In this document: in pieces, positions 56,483 through 64,000 of the stretch
Layout: each line of letters opens with the position of its first letter
How positions within the stretch are numbered: position 1 is the stretch's first letter
NCBI GenBank assembly: GCA_947647615.1
Contig: CANSKS010000009.1
Location: 1-64,000 of the forward strand
Reading direction: 5' to 3'
Length of the DNA: 64,000 nt
DNA from: an uncultured Neglectibacter sp.
GTDB taxonomy: Bacteria; Bacillota; Clostridia; Oscillospirales; Acutalibacteraceae
The notes under the pieces: model-generated
Database searches by the model: none
Told to the model about the DNA's origin: nothing
What the model saw: only the letters and a program-made list of their open reading frames with translations
Program-made: the position numbers and the translations under genes

Positions 56483-57460
56483 TCACAGGCTTCTGGCCGC
56501 CTCCACAATCCAGCGAAGCCGTTCCCAATCCAGCTTTGCGTCGATGGTGCAGTCGCCGCCCAGCATCAAGCCGGTTTTGCCATGATTTAAAATCAGCTCC
56601 CTGGTGTAGGCCTGGAGCTCTTCCTTGCTCCCATGGTAAAGGACGCCCCGCTGCACCTTCCCGTCCCAGAAGGTTTCAAAGCCGCCCAGGGCGGTGCGGC
56701 CGCCAAAGAGATACCGGCCCTCTTCCAGGCTCACCTCTTCCACATGGACCGCCCAGTTGACCACCTTGGCCGGGTAATCCTTCCAAAGGCTCAGCCGGTT
56801 TTTGGCTCCTGCCCAGCCGCACATGTGCAGAATGTTGTTTTCGGAAAACCGGTTGGCGTGCTCCAGCACATACAAATCGCTGGGGCTTATGACCCGCTTG
56901 TACTCTTCCGGGGAGAACCGGTCGTGCTCGCCGCCCTGGACACAGTAATAAATGCCATCGCAGCCGGCCTCGGTAATGAGCAGCTCCGCCAAAAGGGCGT
57001 TGCTCTGGGCAATGACGTCCAGGGCGTGCATCACCGCGTTCCGGTTCTCCTTCAAATGGGCCATGACTCCCTCGTCGGAAACGCCTACGGCCTCCGCTCC
57101 AAACCGCAGGGAAGAAAAGGGCGCGAACACGTTATAGAACACGCAGCGGTCGCTGCCGATCTCCCCTACAATGGCCTTGGCCCTTTCTACCTGCTCCCGA
57201 ATAAAGGAGTCGCCGGCAGTAAGGGGCTTTAAGGTTTTCCAGTCCTCCGCGGTCCGAATTTCCGGCAGGGGATAAGGGAAATAGCTGTCACACATGATCT
57301 TCACAAAATCCAGGTCTGTCTCCCGGTAATACTTCAAATGGGCCTGAACACAAGCGTCTCCGGCAGCCTCTTCCCCACTAAAGTGAAACCAGAACCCCAC
57401 CGGTACGTGATCCACTTCCCTTTTGTTCATAGCGTTCAGCACTCGAGTCCTTTTTTCCAT
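56483..57460 (-). CDS. uroporphyrinogen decarboxylase-family protein (second copy)
   Basis: A 325-aa URO-D-fold barrel (MEKRTRVLNAMNKREVDHVPVGF at the start; GCDGIYYCVQGG; LHMCGWAG). It belongs to the broad URO-D/MtaA methyltransferase-like group; the conserved C-terminal MLGGDCTID is common there. GAGGGAA lies upstream of the ATG at 57460. It is only loosely similar to the gene at 43.4 kb, so substrates probably differ. No cobalamin or heme gene is adjacent. Confidence 0.82.
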   Translation of the reverse strand: MEKRTRVLNAMNKREVDHVPVGFWFHFSGEEAAGDACVQAHLKYYRETDLDFVKIMCDSYFPYPLPEIRTAEDWKTLKPLTAGDSFIREQVERAKAIVGEIGSDRCVFYNVFAPFSSLRFGAEAVGVSDEGVMAHLKENRNAVMHALDVIAQSNALLAELLITEAGCDGIYYCVQGGEHDRFSPEEYKRVISPSDLYVLEHANRFSENNILHMCGWAGAKNRLSLWKDYPAKVVNWAVHVEEVSLEEGRYLFGGRTALGGFETFWDGKVQRGVLYHGSKEELQAYTRELILNHGKTGLMLGGDCTIDAKLDWERLRWIVEAARSL

Positions 57461-57592
57461 TTTGCTTCCCTCTTTCTTCCTGTTTGTTTTCGGGATCTTC
57501 CGGGACCTGCAGCCCCCTCCCAAGGGCAGGCAGGCCGTAACCTGTTCCCAGTATAACACAACGCTGCCTAAATAGGAAGCCCTCCTAGGAGG

Positions 57593-59851
57593 CTAAAAAA
57601 TTCTCCTGTGCGTTTTGCTGCTTTTGTCCCAACCGTACCATTCAACGGCCTTCTTATCTACCCCCGCTATGCTGCAAAGTTTATTAACCTGCCGGATTTT
57701 GGCCACCATATTCGACTGGGTCCCTACCCAATAGGCTTTGCCTTCTGCCTGAATTTGGTGAGCGGTTCTAAAGTAATTTTCCTTTTGGCTGCCTATTGCT
57801 CCGTCATCGGTAAGCCACCCCTGGCATTGCCCTAAAAACGCTTCCGGCGGGAGCTGTGTATGACTAAAAACATATTTTACTATGAGGACCTGGGCTTCCG
57901 CCTTGCTTGCCGCCGGGCACATTTCCCCGCCCAGGACAACATAATCTTCCCCGGCAAATTTGGTATTTTCTGTTTCCTGTCCAGGAGATTTTACCCCCTG
58001 CTGCCCCTGCCACAACAGGCTTTCCAGCTCTCTCGCCATGGCCTTGGGGGAAAAATCGTTTTGCCCTTCCATGGAGCCCCCGAACTTTTCCATGACCGCT
58101 CTATACAAAGAATCCTTTTTGAAGGTGTTGGCGTCAATTTCTACCCCTATCTCCCTGGCTACCGCCGCAGTAAGCTGTGAAAAGAGCAGAATGGTTCTGG
58201 ATAAGTTCTTCCGGATCTCCATTAAATTGATAGATTGGTAGTCAAATTCCGCATAATCCGGTTCCTCCCCATTGGCAGCCTTCCGAAACCGGTTGAGAAC
58301 CTGTGTTACCGCCGCCGCAAAATACCACTTGCCGTTTTGCATGGCAATTTGCACGGCGCTGTCTTTATTATTCAGCTTTTTCCGGTAGGAATGGTAATCT
58401 TCGGAAAGCTCGTAAATAAACCACACGGCCCGGTAATGCCTCCGGAAAGCTGCGGCCTTTTCTTCCCCCGTCTCCGCCTCTATCCAATCCTTCGGGAAAA
58501 TGGTGGTATTCCTAAAGCTGCGGGCATCTTCAACCGGATCCTGGAACTTCAGCAGTACACCGGTCCCGCCGCTTCGGGCTATTCCGGGCTCTCCTGCGCA
58601 GGCTTCCCTTGCCCGAATAAAATCCTGCAGCAGCATTTCCTTTCCCGCCTCGGTTTCCTCCCCGCGGCGCACCAGCTGGAAGGCGCCGGGCTCCCTTCCC
58701 AAAGAGCTTTGCAAATACCGCTCTAATTTTTGCACAACAGGATGGGTAAAGGCAATATCTTCCATGCTTATGGGCTTCTGGCGGTTCAGGGCTACACTGA
58801 TTTGGCTTGCCAGGGAGGGGATGCCGTTTTGAGGGTCTTCCGCTATCCGGATAATCCTCACCATAACCCGGGCCTTTTCCTTGGCGCGCTCATACATCCG
58901 AAGCTGCTCTTCATCCCATTTTCCCAGCTCCTTTTGGGCCTCCAGCCGGAAAAAGTATTCCGCCGCAACAGAAATGGTCTGCGCTCCGTTCACAACGGAG
59001 AAATCCGGGGAGCTTCCCTCCCTTATCTCCCCCAGCGTAAGCCTTTCCGGCTCTAAAGAATGGACCTGAGGGTTCTTGGCTAAAATGGTAATTCCGCTGT
59101 TTTTGAAAAAGAAGTGTTCCGGTTCTGTAGAAAGCGTTCTGCAAATCGCCTGCCCGACTCCCATGTTTTCTCCAATTCCAAAACGTACGTTCCTGTGAAA
59201 AAGCTGGTCCCCTACCTCATGATACACCTGCACCAGCTGGTACAAACCGGTGGTGCATACCATCGCCTGCACCTGGTTGGGAACCGCCGCTGGGTGTTCT
59301 ATAGAAATATTCCCGTCCATAGGAGGCTCCAGCAAAACTTCATGCCGGGATATGCCATTGAGCCTTACGGCCTTTTCTGTGCTGTCATGCAGGACAATAT
59401 AGGTATATTCCAGCCGGGGGCTGGGGCGGTCTCCGGCGCCTTTTTTTATGGCATTCCTCAAATCCCGCTGAACCTCGCCGTTGTCAAAATGACTCTCCGC
59501 CATAATGCGTTCTTTCATATTACAGGTGATAAAGCATATGTGAATATTATTTACGAACCCGCCTTCTGCAAACTGTATCGCTTTTTCCCGTATGATCTTC
59601 TTTAGCTGCTCCGCAGAATCGAAATAGGTCGCGAAAATGGCTTGTTCCCTGTCTTCCGGGCCGGTAATTCCCATTTCCACAGAGTCTGCTGCATAATCCC
59701 TCGAGCCGGCTGCCAGGGCCTTTATCTTGGCCTCCGCATCCGGGCTATATATCCAATCGCTGTCTGCAAAAATATTCATATTTTCTAAACGCTTTTGAAG
59801 AAAATTGACCAACCTTTTTTCCCGGCATTTCCTTTGATATTGGCTTCCCAT
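57593..59851 (-). CDS. AIPR-family (abortive infection phage resistance) protein
   Basis: A 752-aa protein, third gene of a compact operon. The AIPR core (about 200-480) shows FGIGENMGVGQAI (224-236), FFFKNSGITILA (247-258) and VNGAQTI (287-293), the family hallmarks. The N-terminal 180 residues are the usual variable part. The last 130 residues (from about 620) extend beyond typical AIPR proteins and end with a separate basic, Trp-containing segment of unknown role. AIPR proteins are linked to abortive infection, but their mechanism is poorly known. GGAGGGAG precedes the ATG; the gap to the FRG gene is 15 bp. Base composition is clearly less GC-rich than flanking genes. Confidence 0.85.
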   Translation of the reverse strand: MGSQYQRKCREKRLVNFLQKRLENMNIFADSDWIYSPDAEAKIKALAAGSRDYAADSVEMGITGPEDREQAIFATYFDSAEQLKKIIREKAIQFAEGGFVNNIHICFITCNMKERIMAESHFDNGEVQRDLRNAIKKGAGDRPSPRLEYTYIVLHDSTEKAVRLNGISRHEVLLEPPMDGNISIEHPAAVPNQVQAMVCTTGLYQLVQVYHEVGDQLFHRNVRFGIGENMGVGQAICRTLSTEPEHFFFKNSGITILAKNPQVHSLEPERLTLGEIREGSSPDFSVVNGAQTISVAAEYFFRLEAQKELGKWDEEQLRMYERAKEKARVMVRIIRIAEDPQNGIPSLASQISVALNRQKPISMEDIAFTHPVVQKLERYLQSSLGREPGAFQLVRRGEETEAGKEMLLQDFIRAREACAGEPGIARSGGTGVLLKFQDPVEDARSFRNTTIFPKDWIEAETGEEKAAAFRRHYRAVWFIYELSEDYHSYRKKLNNKDSAVQIAMQNGKWYFAAAVTQVLNRFRKAANGEEPDYAEFDYQSINLMEIRKNLSRTILLFSQLTAAVAREIGVEIDANTFKKDSLYRAVMEKFGGSMEGQNDFSPKAMARELESLLWQGQQGVKSPGQETENTKFAGEDYVVLGGEMCPAASKAEAQVLIVKYVFSHTQLPPEAFLGQCQGWLTDDGAIGSQKENYFRTAHQIQAEGKAYWVGTQSNMVAKIRQVNKLCSIAGVDKKAVEWYGWDKSSKTHRRIF

Positions 59852-59866
59852 TCCAGTCTCCCTCCA

Positions 59867-61054
59867 TCACTCTTTTTCCACGCTGTTCTTTGGCGCAGGC
59901 GCAATTGAAATTGCCAAGCGCTCCCACCGGAATTTGCCAAGACCGCATTTGGCGAGCTTGTCCGAAAATTCTTCCATTTGTCTGTTAAAGCCGGTCACAG
60001 CCTGTTCCATTTCCCACAGGAGCTCATGGCCTTTCTTGCCCTGTATCAAATGGATGAACCCCCGCCTGTAGCTGTCGGCCACACGCTCTGCCTTGGCGAG
60101 AATCTTCCACAAAGAGGCCTCGTTCCCCTCTTCCTTTTGGGACAAAGCATATTCCAAATAAAAGTCCAATTCCCTCCTGAGCTTTTCCAAAACAAGGGAA
60201 AGTTCATTTCCCATGGAATAGGGCTTGGCGTTCAAATATCCGCTCCTATTGGTAAGCTCCTTTACAAGATTGCTGATCTCCGGGTAAATACTGCCTGTGT
60301 GAATGCCAAAGAACCGCTTTAACTCGCCGCGTATGGCTTTTTTCGCCGCGCCGGGAATGGGAATTCCGCAATACATACAGGGAGGCAGGTCCTCCGGTTC
60401 ATCGCCCTGAAAAAGAATAAACGCGCCCTGCTGGGCAATAATTCTGGGATTGAGCTTCATATGGTCAAGGAACTTATGGTTTTTTTGAAAGATAGGCTCC
60501 TGGCACCAACCCGGGCTGCGATTTACAATCGCCTCGTAATTTTCCCTTATGTTCTGGGCAGTGGGACTAAAAAGCTCGTCTATAAAAAACAGAAAAACCA
60601 TTCCGTCCTGGTCGTCGTAACAATCTTCCGGCAGCTGGTAGAAGGGCGTTACCGCAAAATACAGCGCTGTGAGACAGTTATAAGATACGTCTAACAAGCG
60701 GCTGGGAAATTCGCCATGCTGCGCGTCTATCGCATTCTCCAAATAACTTTTTTCGCCGGTCAGTCTGTTTTGGCGCATGGCGTCAAACAAATTTTTTTCA
60801 AAATACGGGTTTTCCATAAGCTCCGGCTTCCGGAAAATTCCCGGACGGCAGTAAGTTGGGTACAGCTTGGGCTCTCCTCTATAAGCAAGTATGTAGTTTC
60901 CCGCTTCTGCCGAACAGGCATATTCCTCTACCCGTGTAAGAAAGCCTGCTACATTCTCAATAGGCTTTTCCGAAGCTTCCCCTTTAAAGCGGGTGTCTTT
61001 CGGCAGCCCGCCGTCAAATGGCGCCATAGGCACATCACCCCTCCCTACATTCAC
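59867..61054 (-). CDS. FRG-domain protein
   Basis: A 395-aa protein with an N-terminal FRG domain (about 50-240). Its signatures are AYRGEPKLYPT (the FRG triplet reads YRG, 58-60), QHGEFPSRLLDVS (112-124), NCLTALYFA (126-134) and RIIAQQGAFILF (about 215). The remaining 150 residues are helical and charged, with no named domain. The biochemical role of FRG is unsettled, but such genes recur in defence loci. The start is GTG at 61054, overlapping the upstream stop as GTGA; an ATG at 61027 is an alternative. Middle gene of the operon. Confidence 0.8.
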   Translation of the reverse strand: MNVGRGDVPMAPFDGGLPKDTRFKGEASEKPIENVAGFLTRVEEYACSAEAGNYILAYRGEPKLYPTYCRPGIFRKPELMENPYFEKNLFDAMRQNRLTGEKSYLENAIDAQHGEFPSRLLDVSYNCLTALYFAVTPFYQLPEDCYDDQDGMVFLFFIDELFSPTAQNIRENYEAIVNRSPGWCQEPIFQKNHKFLDHMKLNPRIIAQQGAFILFQGDEPEDLPPCMYCGIPIPGAAKKAIRGELKRFFGIHTGSIYPEISNLVKELTNRSGYLNAKPYSMGNELSLVLEKLRRELDFYLEYALSQKEEGNEASLWKILAKAERVADSYRRGFIHLIQGKKGHELLWEMEQAVTGFNRQMEEFSDKLAKCGLGKFRWERLAISIAPAPKNSVEKE

Positions 61055-61560
61055 ACATCGCCGCTGCGAATCGCCACCCGTATTCCACTGTAATCATAGT
61101 GTATGGGTTCCAGGATTCGCATTGTCAAAATGTGCAATAACGTCTCCGTGTCGTAATGGGTTTCCATGTAAAGCCCTTCCGCTATCTCAATAGGGCTGCG
61201 CATTTCCGCGCCGGTCTTTGCGAGAAAGGCCCGCTTCCTGCCGGCCACATTTCCCGCCAGCCCACGCAGCGCGCCTTCGTTGCCATCCGACAGGCACTGT
61301 TTTAAAATAGCCTGTACCACTTTTTTCCATGTGAACGCTGTTTCTTCACTTCCTCCGGGAAACACCACCCGAACAGGCTTAGTCCCCTTAAAAAGCTTTG
61401 TGCTGCCGGTTAGGGGAAAGAGAACCGTAAGGTCCGGCGCCCTTTTGGCAGCGTCTTTCCCCCTGCTTTTCTCTTCCTCCTGTTCCAGTAAATGTTCCAC
61501 CACTGCGGTGGCCTCTAAAAGAATCTGACGCAGTCCCTCCAAATCCCGAGCAGAATTCAT
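61051..61560 (-). CDS. unrecognised 169-aa protein leading the FRG-AIPR operon
   Basis: No family recognised. Residues 1-30 form an amphipathic, Glu-rich helix; 31-70 are basic; the middle holds KPVRVVFPGGS and FTWKKVVQAILKQCL; and the end (EGLYMETHYDTETLLHILTM) is followed by a Tyr-rich tail. No membrane segment or signal peptide. GGGGGAG is eight bases before the ATG. It is first in the operon, coupled by a four-base overlap to the FRG gene, and could be a sensor, adaptor or antidote for the two larger proteins. That is inference from position. Confidence 0.7.
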   Translation of the reverse strand: MNSARDLEGLRQILLEATAVVEHLLEQEEEKSRGKDAAKRAPDLTVLFPLTGSTKLFKGTKPVRVVFPGGSEETAFTWKKVVQAILKQCLSDGNEGALRGLAGNVAGRKRAFLAKTGAEMRSPIEIAEGLYMETHYDTETLLHILTMRILEPIHYDYSGIRVAIRSGDV

Positions 61561-61583
61561 TTCGTGATCTCCCCCAAAATATA

Positions 61584-61636
61584 ATTCGCACGTGCTAATG
61601 TAGTTTTATTATAATTCTTGCTTGGCCGTTTGTCAA
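61584..61636 (-). promoter_or_regulatory. consensus promoter and operator of the FRG-AIPR operon
   Basis: On the minus strand TTGACA (61631-61636), exactly 17 bp, TATAAT (61608-61613): a perfect sigma-A consensus. The palindrome GCACGTGC (61588-61595), extendable to a 16-nt dyad with ATT/AAT arms, lies just beyond the predicted start site. A promoter this strong with an adjacent dyad suggests repression in normal growth. Confidence 0.8.
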
Positions 61637-61670
61637 GAAATATTCCATAAGCGCGAAAATTTCGTCAAAA

Positions 61671-61699
61671 GAAAAACCGGATGCCTTTTTGCATCCGGT
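61671..61699 (-). terminator. terminator of the isomerase gene, isolating the FRG-AIPR operon
   Basis: On the minus strand ACCGGATGC, six-base loop, GCATCCGGT, then TTTTTC. It lies 91 bp after the isomerase stop and 35 bp before the -35 box of the next operon. Confidence 0.88.
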
Positions 61700-61789
61700 C
61701 CCCGGTTTGTCAAATTCCCCCTCAGGCCCCTTTCGGCCCCCAAAAAGCGGGCCAACGCCGTTCTTCGCCCGGGCAGCCCTTTTGCAGCC

Positions 61790-62635
61790 CTATTCTACCC
61801 GAGCCAGGGCCTGAGCGGCTGTGCGCACGGCTTCCTCCGCCGTCATTCCGGCCAGGCGGGTGCGCCAGGGCTCGAAGGGCTCCGCCATATACAGGGCATT
61901 GCCGGGATGCCGGCGGAACCGGGCCAGCACAGTTTTGGCGTCGATGATTCCGGTTTCCCCAGGCAGCCGGCGTTCCATATCTTTTTGCCGGGCCCGCCCC
62001 GGGACGGCATCGTTAAGGTGTAACGCCACCAGGCGCTGGATGTGCTGTTCCATCAAAGCCACATCGTCCCAGGCGCCTTCCTGGGAGCAGTACCAGTGAA
62101 ACACGTCAAAGGCAATGCCCACTCCCTCCCCGGCGGCATCGGCCAAGGCCAAGGCTCCGGAAAGCGAATGGATAAACCCATGTTCCGCCAAGGTACGCAG
62201 CTCCTGAGGGCCTAAAAATTCCAAACCATAAAAAATGCCGTTCTCCCGCAAGACCCCGTTTACGGCGCGGATGCGCTCCACTGTCCAGGAAAAATTTTCC
62301 TCAAATTCCCTGGGGCTGCAGGGCCAAACATGGTTATAGGCATGGGTCACCCCCAACACCCGGGCGGCATAAGCCCTTCGCCGCAGGACCTCCAGCGCCT
62401 TTTGGAACGCGCTTTCATCCAACTCCCAATGGTAAAAATCGGCGGGCATGGGCAAAAGGCCCCAAGAAAGGCCATGGTCCGCCATAACAGCGGCAGCCTC
62501 CCGGGCAGCCTCTTTATTTTCCAGCACTGCCGGCGTGGCGCTGACAGCTTCAAAGCCATACTTGGCAGCCCAGGGAGCCAGCTCCCGAACGGAGTGCGGA
62601 AGGCCAAGCATGGACGGGTCTAAGGTGCGGAGCAT
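61790..62635 (-). CDS. TIM-barrel sugar phosphate isomerase/epimerase
   Basis: A 281-aa xylose isomerase-like TIM barrel. Likely metal-site strands are FYGLEFLGPQE, GIAFDVFHWYCSQ, LVALHLNDAV and LYMAEPF. It belongs to the inosose-isomerase/hydroxypyruvate-isomerase type group; substrate unknown. GGGGGAATCTT precedes the ATG at 62635. It has its own promoter and terminator and is only distantly like the pair at 17-19 kb. Confidence 0.85.
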   Translation of the reverse strand: MLRTLDPSMLGLPHSVRELAPWAAKYGFEAVSATPAVLENKEAAREAAAVMADHGLSWGLLPMPADFYHWELDESAFQKALEVLRRRAYAARVLGVTHAYNHVWPCSPREFEENFSWTVERIRAVNGVLRENGIFYGLEFLGPQELRTLAEHGFIHSLSGALALADAAGEGVGIAFDVFHWYCSQEGAWDDVALMEQHIQRLVALHLNDAVPGRARQKDMERRLPGETGIIDAKTVLARFRRHPGNALYMAEPFEPWRTRLAGMTAEEAVRTAAQALARVE

Positions 62636-62665
62636 AAGATTCCCCCAAAAAGTGATATTTGGGCC

Positions 62666-62694
62666 ATTCTACTATGGAACAGAGGAGATGTCAA
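62666..62694 (-). promoter_or_regulatory. promoter of the isomerase gene at 61.8-62.6 kb
   Basis: On the minus strand TTGACA (62689-62694), 17-bp spacer, TAGAAT (62666-62671), about 25 nt before the ribosome-binding site. Confidence 0.75.
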
Positions 62695-62873
62695 CCCGGC
62701 CTGCCGCAAGGAGGCTTGTAAAAAAAGAAAGGGCCCGCTGCCCGCTATTGGCGAACAACCGGCCTGCATGCAATGGGTTTTGTAACAGAGATATCCCGGT
62801 ATACAGACATTTTTACAACCGGTTTCCCTGCCTGGCAACCATGATCTGGTCCTTTTTTATCCCGTAGGGCCCA

Positions 62874-63602: not shown

Positions 63603-64000
63603 CTAAATTTGAAACAGAAACAGCAGGAATCCGTACACAATACTGGCGCAGATCCCGAACACCAGCACCGGCCCCGCCACAACGAACATTTTGGCCCCCA
63701 GGCCGGTGATAAAGCCTTCACTTTTAAACTCCATGGCCGGCGAGACCATGGAATTGGCGAATCCGGTGATGGGCACCAGGGTACCGGCCCCGGCATATTT
63801 TGCCATTTGGTCATACCAGCCAATGGCCGTAAGAATGGCGGAAAGCAAAATGAGGCTAATGGAGACAAAGGCCCGGGCATCCTTTAGCGTCAGCCCAAAA
63901 TTTTGGTATAATTGGCACAGCGCCTGGCCTATCGTACAAATGGTTCCGCCGAACAGGAAAGCAAGCAGGCAGTCCTTTCCCACCGGCGAGTTGGGGGAGG
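63603..64000 (-). CDS. spoVAC: stage V sporulation protein AC (5' end outside the window)
   Basis: The visible 132 codons cover most of a SpoVAC membrane protein. The frame runs off the right edge, where SPNSPVGKDCLLAFLFGG continues the normal SpoVAC N-terminal part. The signature block AGAGTLVPITGFANSMVSPA and EFKSEGFITGLGAKMF identify SpoVAC rather than SpoVAE. It forms part of the dipicolinic acid channel in the spore inner membrane. spoVAD, normally next to it, lies 7.3 kb downstream. Confidence 0.92.
   Translation of the reverse strand, partial: SPNSPVGKDCLLAFLFGGTICTIGQALCQLYQNFGLTLKDARAFVSISLILLSAILTAIGWYDQMAKYAGAGTLVPITGFANSMVSPAMEFKSEGFITGLGAKMFVVAGPVLVFGICASIVYGFLLFLFQI

Follow-up and report, generated by a model that had tools for sequence, protein, structure and literature searches.

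A recurrent FRG-AIPR gene pair in a candidate defense operon of an uncultured Neglectibacter, with a putative SeqA-like partner protein

AIPR and FRG are old names in defense genomics and, to our knowledge, no mechanism is known for either. Here, we describe an operon in a 64,000-nucleotide stretch of DNA (hereafter, the window) from an uncultured Neglectibacter sp. (contig CANSKS010000009.1) that encodes a 169-amino acid (aa) protein (P0003), an FRG-domain protein (P0002) and an AIPR-family protein (P0001). A first-pass annotation, made from the sequence alone, had proposed these three genes as an undescribed defense system of no named composition. The observation was confirmed and the interpretation as a whole is partly supported: the neighborhood survey proposed there found that the FRG-AIPR pair recurs, whereas the 169-aa protein does not recur with it. 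Neither the FRG-AIPR combination nor a named system of this composition was found in the literature searched, which was mostly without subscription papers; what is new is the steady combination of FRG with AIPR, together with a predicted SeqA-like partner, the parts being already known.

The closest described counterparts of P0002 are the FRG single-gene defense candidates (PADLOC PDC-S15; Pfam PF08867), with which it has the domain and the core columns in common. The AIPR and FRG identities read from the sequence held up in the profile check: P0002 scores 41.2 bits with PF08867 and P0001 scores 73.5 bits with the Pfam AIPR family (PF10592), against a curated cut-off of 25 in each case. P0002 also scores 2.2e-29 with a PDC-S15 model (PADLOC's own thresholds not applied) and contains the FRG core (R-G, QH, R..LD and Q.G.F), with ten invariant columns in a 16-row alignment that includes P0002 (A4) and 14 in a 32-row alignment (A8). 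A published survey (PMC9503650) assigns Frg to the ART superfamily and suggests that it acts as an NADase in immunity of prokaryotes; on this published assignment, P0002 is possibly an NADase.

P0001 has the AIPR domain in common with the AbiU/AIPR abortive infection proteins (PADLOC AbiU, 1e-11; phrog_1841, 9.3e-24), but differs from them in missing an N-terminal QxK motif and in belonging to a clade that adjoins FRG in all four known cases. The MZA system, in which MzaE is an AIPR protein, resembles the locus in having an AIPR within a multi-gene locus, and six AIPRs of the MZA-type clade are likewise without the strict QxK pattern. However, P0001 scores 22 on the MzaE equivalog model NF041935 (cut-off, 1050) and has no AIPR_N match, unlike the two scanned members of the MZA-type clade (L060 and L061); no other MZA gene was recognized beside the window AIPR. 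By eye, a locus of genome G240 (L026:1035-11994) is MZA-like, with genes for an ATPase, a large protein, an AIPR and a C5-methylase; its AIPR (L013) belongs to the MZA-type clade. PDB sequence searches started from P0001, from P0002 or from the three-row alignment of either returned no more than a single row each, at 0.35 or worse.

The accessible part of PMC3506569 reports a HEPN domain in AIPR proteins and links AIPR/AbiU1 with restriction-modification. Two of the FRG-AIPR pairs described below, those of genome G281 and of a viral contig, lie in loci of this kind, where an Abi gene is linked to restriction-modification genes, whereas no restriction-modification gene was recognized alongside the pairs of the window and of genome G510.

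Recurrence and probable co-inheritance of the FRG-AIPR pair

The pair survey comprised two draws of 398 genomes of the phylum, apparently identical sets judging by their handles. FRG genes occupy 33 places in 30 of these genomes and AIPR genes 23 places in 22; both families are present in five genomes and are adjacent in three (the window's genome, G510 and G281), the remaining 30 FRG places being without an adjoining AIPR. The three adjacent AIPRs have the lowest scores of the 23 (74, 63 and 40 bits), the other 20 scoring 110.6 or more. When the window FRG was searched against 398 genomes, its best two hits other than itself were the G510 and G281 FRGs. A scan with the FRG clade identified a fourth pair on the viral contig IMGVR_UViG_2791355326_000004 (hereafter, UViG), where the FRG is broken into two open reading frames (ORFs) by a frameshift (L086:7896-8893). 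This contig is the only one of 79 viral FRG loci from a broader scan with an AIPR, and the only one of 14 viral AIPR loci with an FRG, in the DNA fetched.

The four paired FRGs form a clade separate from other FRGs (support 100/98) in a tree of 49 rows, which omits two places without a locus and includes 16 viral rows picked from 46 differing ones. The four paired AIPRs likewise group together, with a support of 98/95 and in 98% of bootstrap trees; the underlying tree has 38 rows, covers all 23 phylum places and omits identical or contained copies as well as rows cut by a contig end; in an earlier tree of 30 rows, lacking eight of the 23 phylum AIPRs, this group had a support of 97/93. The branching order ((window,G510),(G281,UViG)) is the same in all three trees, one of FRG and two of AIPR. 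The pair is almost certainly real and co-inherited.

Two of the three other pairs are located in restriction-modification loci that encode both a C5-methylase and a nuclease of the MutH type. In G281, the genes for the MutH-type nuclease, FRG and AIPR are co-directional, with gaps of 15 and 8 base pairs (bp), and the C5-methylase gene is convergent; in the UViG, a divergent MutH-type nuclease gene is followed by those for the C5-methylase, FRG and AIPR. In G510, FRG and AIPR are separated by 16 bp and adjoin a transposase-like fragment (read by eye). The restriction-modification setting of two pairs and the variable site in the window's genome (see below) support the defense-like character proposed in the first-pass annotation, and the pair is very probably a defense or addiction module. 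As a side observation, an AspBHI-type (PF18062) restriction gene (L023:9657-10862) lies directly upstream of MutH-FRG-AIPR in G281, which makes for a compact defense cluster.

Judging by the genomes searched, the pair appears rare and patchy in distribution, as expected of a mobile module. A search for the FRG clade gave nothing in five further genomes of the G281 family and 28 of the G510 family, no additional FRG of this clade was found elsewhere in the window's genome, and P0001 had four other matches, all weak, across 245 genomes of the order. Among viral contigs, no close relatives were found with P0001, P0002 or P0003 alone or with the P0003 alignment. In plasmids, the lists for AIPR (7 and 13 records) had no record in common with those for FRG (5 and 14 records), and among the neighborhoods fetched, five around FRG were without AIPR and two around AIPR were without FRG, by annotation or profile. 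One phage record matches the G281 FRG.

The paired AIPRs stand apart in a further respect. A D...QxK strand, typical of PD-(D/E)XK nucleases, was sought with a strict pattern in the first 190 residues, before the AIPR domain; it is present in none of the four paired AIPRs and in 20 of the 34 unpaired ones, counts that come from related sequences and are not independent samples. Among the 14 unpaired AIPRs that fail the pattern, four (L067, L069, L075 and L077) show QxK by eye, six constitute the MZA-type clade, another two are short, and no motif is present in L070 and L079. In Pfam, Mrr_cat was matched below threshold only, by two of ten proteins scanned. The window's genome carries a second AIPR, of the usual type with D...QxK and outside the paired clade (G000:C80:1046-1882; L068; L202:878-2584).

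The 169-aa protein and the upstream palindrome

P0003 has no family in Pfam (E up to 0.1), as implied when it was first called unrecognized, nor in NCBIfam or PADLOC; PHROG gave one weak row (0.11) and the PDB sequence search one row (0.51). Six members of the P0003 family yielded four weak rows in Pfam, each from a single member (best, HEPN_RiboL-PSP at 0.02), and the SeqA family was not listed for any of the six at E up to 10, with speed filters on. Given only such weak rows, placement of the protein in a named family was rejected.

The structural model of P0003 combines a long N-terminal helix with a match to SeqA-C in which the GRxR motif is in register. The SeqA-type DNA-binding domain is known from replication control. 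The DNA-contact residues of SeqA given in the accessible part of PMC6225831 are R116, T117, R118, N150 and N152: R116 and R118 align with Arg in P0003, and where SeqA has T117, N150 and N152, P0003 has Lys, His and Asp, respectively. Because Asn150 and Asn152 are replaced, reading of GATC by P0003 is not predicted. P0003 is probably a mobile, patchily distributed SeqA-C-like DNA-binding regulator, which differs from SeqA in being undetected by the Pfam library, in the helix modeled at its N-terminus and in the mobility and patchiness of its gene.

Within the 10-16 kb of DNA fetched, all six P0003 relatives are without FRG and without AIPR, and none of the three other FRG-AIPR pairs shows a significant P0003 match. 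P0003 was seen with FRG-AIPR in the window only, which tells against the trio as a conserved unit and leaves the pair standing. P0003 was not found in plasmids or phages, and no SeqA was found in phages. Relatives of P0003 lie near methylase genes in L006 (N6/N4) and L010 (C5); the relative in L010 (L010:6040-8070, genome G006) is a short one without the N-terminal part, located after the C5-methylase gene.

A palindrome lies just downstream of the -10 element of the operon promoter (Table 1). Its 11-mer TTAGCACGTGC starts 36-44 bp ahead of the start codon in four of the six P0003 family members (the window, L006, L007 and L008), where it lies at or within the promoter. With at most one mismatch, the 14-mer has one match in the window's genome (G000) and one in G010, both at a gene of the P0003 family. 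A sensor or control role for the 169-aa protein, as guessed early on, agrees with both the SeqA-like model and this conserved operator-like site. Autoregulation, in which P0003 would bind the palindrome, is our first choice, and metal control its main rival.

Candidate modes of action

The best explanation of these observations, to which we assign an even chance with its division of labor included, would be a two-gene FRG-AIPR module of the abortive infection type. The core would be an anti-phage module passed on as a unit, in which FRG, an ART-superfamily domain, would serve as the toxic enzyme that consumes NAD+ or ADP-ribosylates a target, and AIPR would sense infection and/or keep FRG inactive; because the paired AIPR clade is without the nuclease-like motif common among its relatives, killing would be left to FRG. 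In the window, the mobile SeqA-C-like protein would have been inserted in front and would control expression, probably via the palindrome located where transcription from the shared promoter begins. The paired clade, with its AIPR devoid of the nuclease-like motif, would offer a simple two-gene system for asking what AIPR does, be it sensing or control of an NAD-directed effector, and a SeqA-type DNA-binding domain would be tied to a defense operon.

Several observations weigh against this explanation. The QxK motif is also absent in other AIPR lineages and so was lost, or never there, outside the paired clade too. An earlier count (18 of 26 unpaired AIPRs with the motif) had omitted eight of the 23 phylum AIPRs that have no match to the three-row profile; the full recount made the contrast weaker and the AIPR tree firmer, and left our assessment unchanged. 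In the AIPR tree, long branches were flagged, including that of the window with G510, as was odd composition in three paired rows, so that the FRG tree is the firmer one. As for the regulatory part, TTAGCACGTGC was not found ahead of L009 and L010; no 14-mer match was found in G025 or G005, though both hold P0003 relatives; and, among the five of 40 genomes with a match, the 14-mer lies at other genes in three (G036, a perfect match; G024; G006). The idea that the palindrome is private to the 169-aa family is weakened by these three matches.

The same matches raise the alternative of a host box for a metal repressor (DtxR/MntR-like) at the palindrome, the operon being iron- or manganese-controlled and P0003 a passenger. 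Boxes resembling TTAGCA-NN-TGCTAA are found ahead of FeoB-like genes in G024, G006 and G692 (L219, L222 and L227, at about position 1500; gene names assigned by eye), suggestive of an iron-repressor site, and ahead of an ABC-permease-like gene in G036; the FeoB-like gene of G692 adjoins a metal-repressor-type gene (read by eye), and in G006 it is the Feo genes that have the match, whereas the P0003 relative there has none. However, the four P0003 family members keep the center CACGTG while the right arm varies, whereas in the Feo boxes the center varies and the arms are nearly fixed, and the sole matches in G000 and G010 are at the P0003 gene family, which makes metal control quite improbable. 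A role of P0003 as sensor, whereby a SeqA-like methylation reader would separate host from phage DNA and trigger FRG-AIPR, seems rather unlikely as well. The SeqA-C-like model, the methylase genes near P0003 relatives, the MutH domains at two of the three other pair loci, where the MutH-type nuclease and methylase might play this role, and the four GATC sites in the operon against 11 expected at the window rate would all suit it; yet the G510 pair shows no MutH- or methylase-type partner, the His and Asp at the SeqA asparagine positions do not predict GATC reading, P0003 relatives have no FRG or AIPR nearby, and a conserved site in P0003's own promoter better suits a regulator.

A further alternative is a toxin-antitoxin-like addiction module, in which FRG would be the toxin, AIPR the antitoxin and P0003 an autorepressor, and which would stabilize mobile DNA, with phage defense a by-product or absent. 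The tightly packed operon, whose first gene encodes a small protein that probably binds DNA and whose start site carries a palindrome, the variable genomic site and the transposase-like fragment beside the G510 pair are in line with this scheme, but two pairs lie in restriction-modification loci, both unpaired AIPRs scanned match defense models (AbiU and MzaE), and AIPR is very large for an antitoxin; on balance, we regard an addiction module as unlikely. Equally unlikely, in our estimate, is a more far-reaching form of the favored FRG-AIPR defense module: an unnamed immune module whose AIPR scaffold gave up its nuclease and left killing to a separate ART-type enzyme, whose DNA-reading front ends are exchanged (MutH-type nuclease plus C5-methylase in one branch, SeqA-like reader in the other), and which would answer to the state of DNA modification and not to a phage protein.

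Operon layout and genomic site

The three ORFs are tightly coupled, as first described: those of P0003 and FRG share four bases, GTGA (61051-61054), and 15 bases separate FRG from AIPR (59852-59866), both read directly from the sequence. The perfect-consensus promoter reported earlier is likewise there: 57000-62700 contains 11 promoter-like sites, compared with a mean of 4.1 in shuffles, and this one alone is a complete match. An Rfam search of the same region gave no match. The flanking terminators claimed with it fared unequally. The upstream hairpin (about 61676-61700, followed by a T-rich run) is convincing, with a fold z of -2.37 for 61637-61780, although absent from the pattern-scan list, in which terminator-like sites were at chance level (10 found; mean, 9.1); its probable role would be to terminate the gene preceding the operon. 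For the hairpin at the AIPR stop, folding of the stretch does not exceed that of shuffled sequences.

Table 1 Features of the operon and its flanks (window coordinates)
Feature	Position	Strand	Remark
AIPR-family protein P0001, 752 aa	57593..59851	minus	divergent clade without N-terminal QxK nuclease-like motif
FRG-domain protein P0002, 395 aa, GTG start	59867..61054	minus	proposed ART-type effector
P0003, 169 aa, long N-terminal helix and SeqA-C-like domain (modeled)	61051..61560	minus	proposed DNA-binding regulator
Operator-like palindrome TTAGCACGTGCGAA (minus-strand reading)	61585..61598		9 bp past the -10
Sigma-70-type promoter TTGACA-17-TATAAT	61608..61636	minus	consensus 12/12
Hairpin and T-rich run, probable terminator of preceding gene	61667..61700	minus	perfect 9-bp stem
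Weak hairpin at AIPR stop, unconvincing as terminator	57578..57594	minus	5-pair stem; z 0.56

The operon sits at a variable site. In G007, the closest same-genus genome found, whose URO-D neighbor is 83% identical, the flanking genes are kept, SpoVAD and URO-D on one side of the site and, opposite, the gene at 63603, about 3.6 kb apart compared with 6.1 kb in the window. No match to any of the three operon proteins, or to the genes at 61790 and 62874, was found between these flanking genes; all are missing in G007, so the variable stretch exceeds the operon. By eye, no other defense gene was recognized among the ORFs of the window, for which no whole-window profile scan was made; the genes adjoining the operon carry URO-D and AP_endonuc_2 domains.

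The low GC content noted at the outset is real, at 50.4% for the operon compared with 55.4% for the window, but smaller in contrast than the 42-50% against over 60% originally given, with four neighboring genes at 57-61%. Stretches of the same length with GC equal to or below that of the operon account for 18 of 300 in the window, and third-position GC is 57-58% in the operon against 69-73% in five neighboring genes.

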